Assembly: GCF_003946545.1 (NCBI RefSeq)
Contig: NZ_RHOA01000003.1
Coordinates: forward strand, 124,001-188,000
DNA length: 64,000 nt
Source: Levilactobacillus tangyuanensis
GTDB taxonomy: Bacteria; Bacillota; Bacilli; Lactobacillales; Lactobacillaceae
Reading direction: 5' to 3'
Numbering within the stretch: the stretch's first letter is position 1; the number at the start of each line of letters is the position of its first letter. The translations under genes and the position numbers were made by a program. Below are positions 61,335 through 64,000 of the stretch, piece by piece. The notes below the pieces were generated by a model, which did no database searches, had not been told where the DNA came from, and worked only from the letters and a program-made list of their open reading frames with translations.

Positions 61335-61362
61335 TTGAAATATTCTCTAAAGGGGATATAAT
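61335..61362 (+). promoter_or_regulatory. Promoter of the Rrf2-MMPL operon
   Basis: TTGAAA at 61335-61340, 16 bases, consensus TATAAT at 61357-61362. The sequence following the -10 contains CTC-GTTTAA-GAG, a small inverted repeat that could be part of an operator. Confidence 0.75.
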
Positions 61363-61419: not shown

Positions 61420-61941
61420 TTGAAGGCAAAGCCAAGCTTAGAGCAGGCGCTGTGCATCGTGGCATTACTAGGAATTCAGGATCGAGAGATTCCGCTACAT
61501 AGTCAACTTGTGGCTCAACGACTGGGAATTTCGACCAGTTATCTGAAGAAAATTGTCCAAAAATTGGCGGGAGCCAAGATTGTTAAGACGGTATCCGGTC
61601 GTGAGGGCGGCATTGTTTTGACCCGCGACCCCCATGAGATAACGTTACTTGAGGTCTTCGAAGCCATCGAAGGACAATCATTGTTTGTTAAGAACACGGG
61701 ATTAGTCAATAAGGTTTTTGGATTTGATCAGAAACAAGCCTTTATGAACACCTATCAGCTAAATGACCTGCAGGATCAACAGCCAGTTGCCAATGTCTTA
61801 GCCGTTTTTGGCAGGGCAGAGGATCTGTATCGGCAGGAGTTAGCAAAGTTGACCATTGGCGAGGTCTTGCCCACAACGGATCATCAACCGGTTGAGTTGG
61901 ACTGGACGACATGGTTAAAGCAACACCCATCAGCAGAATAG
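61420..61941 (+). CDS. Rrf2 family transcriptional regulator
   Basis: A 173-residue regulator with an N-terminal winged helix (PSLEQALCIVALLGIQ, QRLGISTSYLKKIVQKLAGA, VSGREGGIVLTRDP). The only cysteine (residue 11) is in the first helix; the three-cysteine iron-sulfur cluster motif of IscR/NsrR is absent, so it likely senses something else. The start is TTG at 61420 after AAGGAGGG. It precedes the MMPL transporter gene by 27 bases and probably regulates it. Confidence 0.88.
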   Translation: MKAKPSLEQALCIVALLGIQDREIPLHSQLVAQRLGISTSYLKKIVQKLAGAKIVKTVSGREGGIVLTRDPHEITLLEVFEAIEGQSLFVKNTGLVNKVFGFDQKQAFMNTYQLNDLQDQQPVANVLAVFGRAEDLYRQELAKLTIGEVLPTTDHQPVELDWTTWLKQHPSAE

Positions 61942-61968: not shown

Positions 61969-63390
61969 GTGCGTTGGATGAATAAACATTACACCTGGAA
62001 CGTCATCGGGTGGCTAGTGATTGTCTTGCTGGCCGTCCTGACGTTACCGAACATGAGTCAACTGGTGGCTGACAAGGGACAGATTACGGTCCCTGACAGT
62101 TATCAGAGCACCCGTGCGACGAATATGCAGAAGCAGTGGGGCCGTTCCCAACGCGGCACCACTGCGGTCGTGGTGGTCTTCAGCAACGGCAACTCGGCCT
62201 TGACGAGTTCCCAGAACACCGCGATTGACCAAACGATTCAGCGAATCAAGAATCATGAGTCCCAATATGAAATCCGGTCGGTGACCGCAGCCAGCGATAG
62301 TTCAACGGCGGCGTCACAGCTGGTTTCAAAGGATAAGAGTACGCAGTTACTGCAATTAAACGTCCATAAGTCCTCCAGTCATGGGGTGGCCACGATTCGG
62401 AGTCAAATCACGAACCTGGCCAAGACCAGCGGTGTTAAGACTTACGTTACCGGGGCCGATGTCTTGAATCAAGACTTCTCCGATGCCACACAGGCCGGGG
62501 TTCAAAAGACCGAAGTGATTGCGGCGATCTTTATCTTCTTGGTTCTATGGTTGGTCTTCCGTTCGCCGGTCACGCCATTATTCTCACTATTAACGGTGGC
62601 GGTATCCGTTATCACCTCGATTTCCGTGGTGGCCAACATGGTTGACCGCTTCAACTTCCCATTCTCCAACTTTACGGAAGTCTTTATTGTCATCGTGTTA
62701 TTCGGGATTGGGACGGACTATAACATCCTCCTATACAATGAATTCCGGGAGCGATTGGCCCAAGGGCAGGATCGCTACTCGGCAACCAAGGACGCCATTA
62801 AGATTGGAGGCCGGACGGTACTTTACTCCGGGCTTTCCGTCTTAATCGGGATGAGTGTGCTGGGCTTTGCCAACTTCTCACTGTACCGTTCCGCGGTTGG
62901 CATCGCCGTCGGGGTTGTGGTCTTGTTGGCCGTTCTCCTGACCTTAAATCCATTCTTCATGGCCGTCTTCGGTAAACGGATGTTCTGGCCAGTCAAAAAG
63001 TTTGCCGGCGAAGGCGACAGTCGATTGTGGCACGGCATGGCCAAACACGCCATGATTCGCCCAATTATCACCTTAATTGTGACCGGAATTGTCTTTGTCC
63101 CATTAGCCCTGACGTCTCATGGGACCTTGGACTACGACAATCTGGTTGAAATTGGGAATAACGTTCCCGCCAAGCAAGGGTTCAAGATTGTTCAGAAGCA
63201 TTTCTCCAAGGGGACTGCGGAACCAACGACCATTTATATTCAGAGTGATCACAAGTTGGACAACGAAAAATCCTTGATGTTAATCGACCGGTTAACCAAG
63301 CAATTGCAAGCGTCGACCGGAGTTAAGACCGTGGCTTCCGCTACCCAACCGGGTGGTAAGGAAAAAAGCTTTACGTTCGGAACCAAATGA
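61969..63390 (+). CDS. MMPL/RND-family transporter, N-terminal half (frame-interrupted)
   Basis: A 473-codon frame starting at GTG 61969, seven bases after TAGGAGG. It encodes the first half of a YdgH/YdfJ-type MMPL exporter. There is a first membrane helix (about 10-28), an extracellular domain, five more helices (about 183-350) with FGIGTDYNILLYNEFRE and GRTVLYSGLSVLIGM, then a membrane segment and extracellular portion. The frame ends prematurely at TGA 63388-63390 just after an A6 run (63362-63367); the family continues for about 400 more residues. The continuation is present in a shifted frame directly downstream. Confidence 0.82.
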   Translation: MRWMNKHYTWNVIGWLVIVLLAVLTLPNMSQLVADKGQITVPDSYQSTRATNMQKQWGRSQRGTTAVVVVFSNGNSALTSSQNTAIDQTIQRIKNHESQYEIRSVTAASDSSTAASQLVSKDKSTQLLQLNVHKSSSHGVATIRSQITNLAKTSGVKTYVTGADVLNQDFSDATQAGVQKTEVIAAIFIFLVLWLVFRSPVTPLFSLLTVAVSVITSISVVANMVDRFNFPFSNFTEVFIVIVLFGIGTDYNILLYNEFRERLAQGQDRYSATKDAIKIGGRTVLYSGLSVLIGMSVLGFANFSLYRSAVGIAVGVVVLLAVLLTLNPFFMAVFGKRMFWPVKKFAGEGDSRLWHGMAKHAMIRPIITLIVTGIVFVPLALTSHGTLDYDNLVEIGNNVPAKQGFKIVQKHFSKGTAEPTTIYIQSDHKLDNEKSLMLIDRLTKQLQASTGVKTVASATQPGGKEKSFTFGTK

Positions 63391-64000
63391 GTACCGTCAC
63401 CAGCGGATTGGCACAGGCCCAGGCCGGCGTTAATAAGGTCAACAAGGGTCTTAAGTCCGCCAACGACCAATTGAGCAAGCAAGATGTTTCCGGTTCGGTC
63501 ACGTCGGCTAAGAAACTGGCCAGTGGGGCCCAAGAGGTCAGCACCGGGACCAATCAGCTACAGTCGGCCATTTCGCAGGTCTCGACCGGGGTTAATTCCC
63601 TGAATAGTCAGGTATCATCTGCCTCCGGTGGGAAGCAGGCAGCGCAATTAGCCCAGCTGGAGGCGGCCTTGCCACAGCTGAACGCGGCCATTCAAAAACT
63701 AAACCAACAGGTTTCGGGTAGTAGTACCAATACCAGCGGGATCAAGACTTCCCTGACCACCATTGGCGGGAAGACCCAGGATATTGGGAAGCAGTTGGCC
63801 ACGGTGCAGAGCACGATGAAGAGCATGCCAAGTGTGGATGCTAGCACCGTCAGTGCCGCCTTTACCAAGGCCGGCGCACCACTATCCGCTGCTCAGAAGC
63901 AGGTGTTAGCGGGGGTTCTCAAGCAACAGACCGCTGCGCAAGCGAAGTTACAGACCGAATTAACCGCGTCACTGACTAAGATTGGAACGGATGCCACCTC
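63363..64000 (+). pseudogene. MMPL transporter, continuation in a shifted frame (runs off the window)
   Basis: From the A6 run onward a different frame reads KLYVRNQMSTVTSGLAQAQ and continues without a stop to the window edge, more than 200 codons. It is rich in Ala/Gln/Ser/Thr with a heptad-like pattern (LAQAQAGVNKVNKGLKSAND), which is the coiled-coil extracellular insert typical of MMPL proteins of Firmicutes. One extra A in the A6 run would join both parts into a single protein. An ATG at 63387 could in principle start a separate product but has no ribosome binding site. Confidence 0.75.

Follow-up and report, generated by a model that had tools for sequence, protein, structure and literature searches.

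Proteins of the MMPL family possess about 12 transmembrane helices (TM) with extracellular domains after TM1 and TM7, and mycobacterial MmpL4 and MmpL5 have a coiled-coil extracellular part. MmpL5 and MmpL4 structures (PDB entries 8zkp, 9u51, 9syt, and 9dp6) are the best PDB sequence matches of the intact Levilactobacillus senmaizukei orthologue of the exporter gene described here, and the match to 8zkp has an E-value of 4e-59 and comprises two stretches. The gene itself starts close to the end of the analyzed window, a stretch of 64,000 nucleotides (positions 124001-188000 of contig C23) from a genome of 2.19 Mb in 35 contigs.

As homologue set, the best 80 of 473 related loci were used, from which records very near to the window are possibly absent. 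The genome collections contained one genome per species, the window's species being represented by the sequenced strain alone. The loci closest to the window belong to Levilactobacillus. Among the loci compared, L. senmaizukei is the nearest relative, with an identity of about 90% for the exporter gene at the DNA level. Its contig is colinear with C23 over 58.5 kb at 84-86% DNA identity.

Reading Frames and Domains of the Exporter Gene

The exporter frame starts with GTG 61969 on the forward strand and ends at a premature in-frame TGA (63388..63390). The resulting N-terminal piece (61969..63390, 473 aa) consists of about 465 native residues and 8 out-of-frame residues before the stop. The C-terminal piece lies on the same strand (63360..64000) and contains the coiled-coil-like extracellular part. 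Its frame begins behind a stop codon whose last base is 63359, is free of stops beyond the window up to position 189240 of C23, and comprises 617 aa counted from ATG 63387, which overlaps the TGA. A hairpin and a T run could be read by eye 3′ of its natural end. The first-pass annotation had described an MMPL transporter broken by a frameshift, with the GTG-to-TGA frame, six As at 63362-63367, and the family continuation in the next frame up to the window end. All of this agrees with the letters: the protein continues as KKLYVRNQMS... in the −1 frame, and an MMPL/RND-type exporter is split at this site. In the assembly, the frame is indeed broken.

Each piece carries one MMPL domain (PF03176), with 201 bits for the N-terminal and 97 bits for the C-terminal piece (L112:3387-5237) compared to a cut-off of 20.5. 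Two PF03176 stretches are also found in the intact orthologue, while in the window the two domains sit in different frames. The matches to the NCBIfam model TIGR00833 are complementary, covering model positions 3-464 (N-terminal piece) and 585-900 (C-terminal piece) of 910. When the two pieces were scanned, both stayed below the curated cut-off of 874.7 bits of this model (202 and 145 bits).

The hydropathy profile of the intact L. senmaizukei protein shows hydrophobic blocks that suggest TM1 at residues 7-35, TM2-6 within 175-336, TM7 at 360-387, and a last bundle of helices at 904-1067. The break after about residue 465 falls into the second extracellular domain. By the same profile, the N-terminal product would retain TM1-7, the first extracellular domain, and the start of the second one. 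Missing from it would be the coiled-coil-like region and also the last TM bundle, which is encoded past the window end, and for this reason the exporter of the sequenced strain is most likely non-functional as judged from its predicted topology. A paralogue with an open frame of 927 aa is present on contig C12.

The overlap of TGA 63388 and ATG 63387, which opens the 617-aa frame, could also be read as a natural split into two coupled genes for two subunits. This explanation is hardly credible, since 30 of the 32 loci that could be aligned here contain this ATG as a Met codon within their open frame, none of the 80 homologous loci is split at the site, and a re-initiated C-terminal product would begin extracellularly, about 430 residues ahead of its first predicted TM. 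The overlap thus looks inherited by chance, and a two-gene split was rejected on the basis of the internal ATG and the unsplit loci.

Size and Nature of the Lesion

The lesion site (63361..63368, forward strand) reads GAAAAAAG in the window and GAAATTAAAAAG in L. senmaizukei. Its size was determined by DNA alignment, residue spacing, and deletion placements. A DNA alignment across the site was possible for 32 of the 80 loci. All 32 have 4 nt more than the window, whose row is the only one with a 4-nt gap at this place. The 4-nt figure presumes an ancestor that resembled these relatives. At the protein level, the distance from a conserved G to the motif [LQ]Y is exactly five residues in all 79 homologues reaching the site (of 80), with a search pattern that permitted one to nine residues and with the locus of L. 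lindianensis (L035) translated past its stop.

A single 4-nt deletion, with the A6 run as its scar, fits these alignments best. The first-pass annotation had instead proposed the loss of one base from an A7 run. This proposal was rejected as the preferred interpretation, since the site exceeds that of the window by 4 nt in the relatives and an A7 version of the site would leave four residues between the conserved G and [LQ]Y, an ancestral spacing that occurs in none of the 79 homologues. A 4-nt deletion from the L. senmaizukei sequence has three equivalent placements, corresponding to a microhomology of 2 nt. The deletion would have occurred in a single step at the A-rich codons GAA-ATT-AAA-AAG, probably by replication slippage or via the microhomology. 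An Ile codon plus one more base would thereby have been lost from the gene of an MMPL-family exporter with a length of about 1,091 aa, so that the native residues up to about 465, the 8 out-of-frame residues, and the premature TGA remain.

The one-base loss could be retained as the second of two steps, with an in-frame loss of one codon leading to A7 and the subsequent loss of one A. Removing 3 nt from the L. senmaizukei sequence does yield A7, and A7 runs are present in frame in the site codons of L038 and L040, two homologues that are intact and more distant. This path requires two events, however, and the shortened spacing was found in 0 of 79 homologues. As the five-residue spacing is common to all homologues that reach the site, no shortened in-frame intermediate is seen, and we consider the two-step path improbable.

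Uninterrupted relatives at the same site, as they characterize a frameshift pseudogene, were found throughout: 78 of the 80 loci read through it, with open frames of 821-1491 codons counted from the match start, and 32 of 35 Levilactobacillus genomes are intact. The remaining two loci are L036, which is cut by a contig end, and L035, which stops at its own nonsense codon 85. Orthologues with a natural end at the same TGA, which the first-pass annotation had named as an argument against a broken gene, do not occur among the 80 loci.

Sequencing or Assembly Error as an Alternative

The main rival explanation is a sequencing or assembly error, in which case the living strain would have an intact gene. 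The site is A-rich, and neither half of the gene is decayed, which is equally what an error would give. Against this stands the size of the discrepancy, as 4 nt instead of plus or minus one would be unlike a homopolymer error. In addition, a true A7 would mean the one-residue shortening that none of the 79 homologues shows.

Furthermore, the frames of neighboring genes were compared using L. senmaizukei ORFs of at least 80 aa from three contig stretches. In total, 99 of 100 such ORFs could be matched in the window's contig, with the exporter as the sole case of a frame switch in the window's genome. The ORFs were picked over 120 kb, of which the frame comparison spans most but not all, and some of the picked ORFs are perhaps not genes. 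These ORFs contain nine homopolymers with a length of 7 or 8 (four A7, two A8, two T7, and one G7 run), despite which no other clear frame break was found among the 99 matched ORFs. Four L. senmaizukei ORFs were flagged for stops or short coverage, namely the exporter, two short ORFs on the minus strand (83 and 104 aa), and one whose match runs off the window's start. In the reverse comparison, which comprised 47 window-side ORFs, stops or coverage on the L. senmaizukei side led to a flag for six of them. Taken together, we consider an error unlikely, and the lesion is presumably present in the living strain.

Beyond the window, C23 contains an open ORF of 286 aa (69116-69976 in window numbering, L112) whose L. 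senmaizukei counterpart is interrupted by four stops. Possibly, this ORF is spurious or has decayed in L. senmaizukei.

Expression Across the Break

Both halves of the gene are still constrained, and the continuation in the −1 frame could be reached via one extra A in the mRNA. The frame might therefore be restored during expression, by transcriptional slippage on the A6 run or by −1 ribosomal slippage, so that the full-length exporter is still made. Slippage on runs shorter than nine is described as possible in several bacteria in PMC1088944. The survey of that paper is restricted to runs of nine As or Ts, and eight As are suggested to be productive in some IS elements. Compared to these lengths, the A6 run is short. 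A passage of PMC5574713 gives overall indel rates and does not cover runs of six.

The first-pass annotation had listed transcriptional slippage among its explanations. A programmed event is not supported, given a short A run that is neither in phase nor conserved and that is followed by no notable structure. The codons GAA AAA AGC place the heptamer A_AAA_AAG out of phase, and in 77 of 79 homologues, the site codons contain no A run longer than five. A slippery run that is both in phase and conserved was not found among the 79 homologues, and the 92 nt downstream show no unusual RNA structure (z-score −0.51, pseudoknots left out). Programmed slippage was rejected on the grounds of phase, absence in the relatives, and RNA folding. 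Low-level slippage on A6 could still give some full-length protein, but continued production of the exporter in this way is very improbable overall. The A6 run also appears short for a phase-variable homopolymer.

Selection and Age of the Break

Compared to L. senmaizukei, the dN/dS ratio is 0.011 for the N-terminal half and 0.034 for the C-terminal half, and both halves are under purifying selection. With five outgroups, 5 non-synonymous changes were assigned to the window branch and 10 to the L. senmaizukei branch, while 12 could not be assigned to either. If the window branch were wholly neutral, the expectation would be about 569 non-synonymous changes, compared to the 5 assigned. Since both halves are constrained, either the break is very young, or it reflects an error, or the exporter continues to be produced. 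If the lesion is real, the lack of any onset of decay in the downstream half points to a very recent event. A recent single 4-nt deletion in the gene of an MMPL exporter that is otherwise conserved, and the function of which is most likely lost, is in our view the probable explanation of the locus. The exporter gene is therefore regarded as an ordinary recent pseudogene, and broken genes of this kind are common.

Broken Exporter Copies in Levilactobacillus

The exporter frame is kept in 32 of 35 genomes of the genus, one of which is only 72% complete, and it is broken in the window's genome and in the genomes G014 and G016, each at a different place. The copy of G014 (L084/L152; G014:C103, around position 93908) is frame-broken near codon 281 at eight Gs, where L018, which has the highest similarity among the 34 loci compared, reads GGGGGTCGG. 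In the copy of L. lindianensis 220-4 (L035; G016), codon 85 is a TAG nonsense codon, and the frame changes close to codon 1005.

As controls, the paralogue, a RelA-like gene, and a ClpB-like gene were used. Broken copies were found in 0 of 35 genomes for the paralogue, in 1 of 35 for the RelA-like gene (G004), and in 0 of 35 for the ClpB-like gene. The paralogue copies (open frames of 923-978 aa) were treated as one orthologous set without a tree. The RelA-like gene of G004 is found in two frames, split near residue 430 (G004:C1:282186-284419).

The excess of broken exporter copies over the control genes is not significant by Fisher's test, neither for 3 of 35 copies vs. 0 of 35 of the paralogue (one-sided p = 0.12) nor, with the window's genome left out, for 2 of 34 vs. 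1 of 102 copies of the three controls (p = 0.15). The binomial probability of at least 2 broken copies among 34 is 0.013, 0.045, and 0.15 at an assumed background of 0.5, 1, and 2%, respectively, and this answer hinges on a background rate that three controls cannot fix. A hot spot of recurrent loss was rejected for these reasons. It would be conceivable that independent knock-outs are selected repeatedly because the coiled-coil-like ectodomain is a liability, e.g., as an entry point for phages or bacteriocins, whereas the genus as a whole retains the gene; this is regarded as quite improbable. If it were true that repeated loss of the exporter is selected, this would point to a cost of the large surface domain.

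Rrf2 Regulator and Gene Neighborhood

An intact gene for an Rrf2-family transcriptional regulator (61420..61941, forward strand, 173 aa) is located upstream of the exporter, with matches to PF02082 (81.8 bits) and TIGR00738 (75.5 bits, cut-off 73.3), and its end is separated from the exporter start by 27 nt. A promoter-like sequence TTGAAA-16-TATAAT (61335..61362, forward strand) was detected ahead of the Rrf2 gene by a consensus scan with 11 of 12 matches. As the region contains four promoter-like sites compared to a mean of 2.6 in shuffled sequences, this site is only suggestive. The same scan revealed no promoter-like site between the Rrf2 gene and the exporter.

At a distance of up to about 650 nt, an Rrf2 relative precedes the exporter in 35 of the 80 loci, comprising 30 Levilactobacillus or closely related records, 4 of Furfurilactobacillus, and 1 MAG. 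In the other 45 loci, some of which have short flanks, no Rrf2 match was found upstream. Based on this conserved neighborhood, putative control of the exporter by the Rrf2 regulator is plausible. A literature search for the combination of MMPL, Rrf2, and Lactobacillus returned nothing.

On the 3′ side of the exporter, C23 encodes beyond the window an ORF of 1,174 aa with a signal-like start (65607-69131 in window numbering, L112), which resembles surface proteins of the KxYKxGKxW type.

Implications and Comparison With Known Systems

For the annotation, which is the point mainly concerned, the sequenced strain probably lacks the function of an MMPL exporter that is conserved and Rrf2-linked in Levilactobacillus. 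As a 4-nt deletion and not a homopolymer slip, the lesion also alters what is to be sought in reads or in other strains.

The orthologue of L. senmaizukei DSM 21775 (L002) shares 99% (N-terminal segment) and 96% (C-terminal segment) amino-acid identity with the window and is likewise preceded by an Rrf2 relative. It differs by an unbroken frame of 1,091 aa and a site that is 4 nt longer. The L. lindianensis copy resembles the window in being an otherwise conserved exporter with inactivating lesions, but these lie at codons 85 and about 1005 and are independent of the one described here. The kinship with mycobacterial MmpL5 and MmpL4, which belong to the MMPL family of the RND superfamily, is reflected by PF03176 in both halves of the exporter; in contrast to these proteins, the exporter described here belongs to the Lactobacillaceae and its gene is interrupted.
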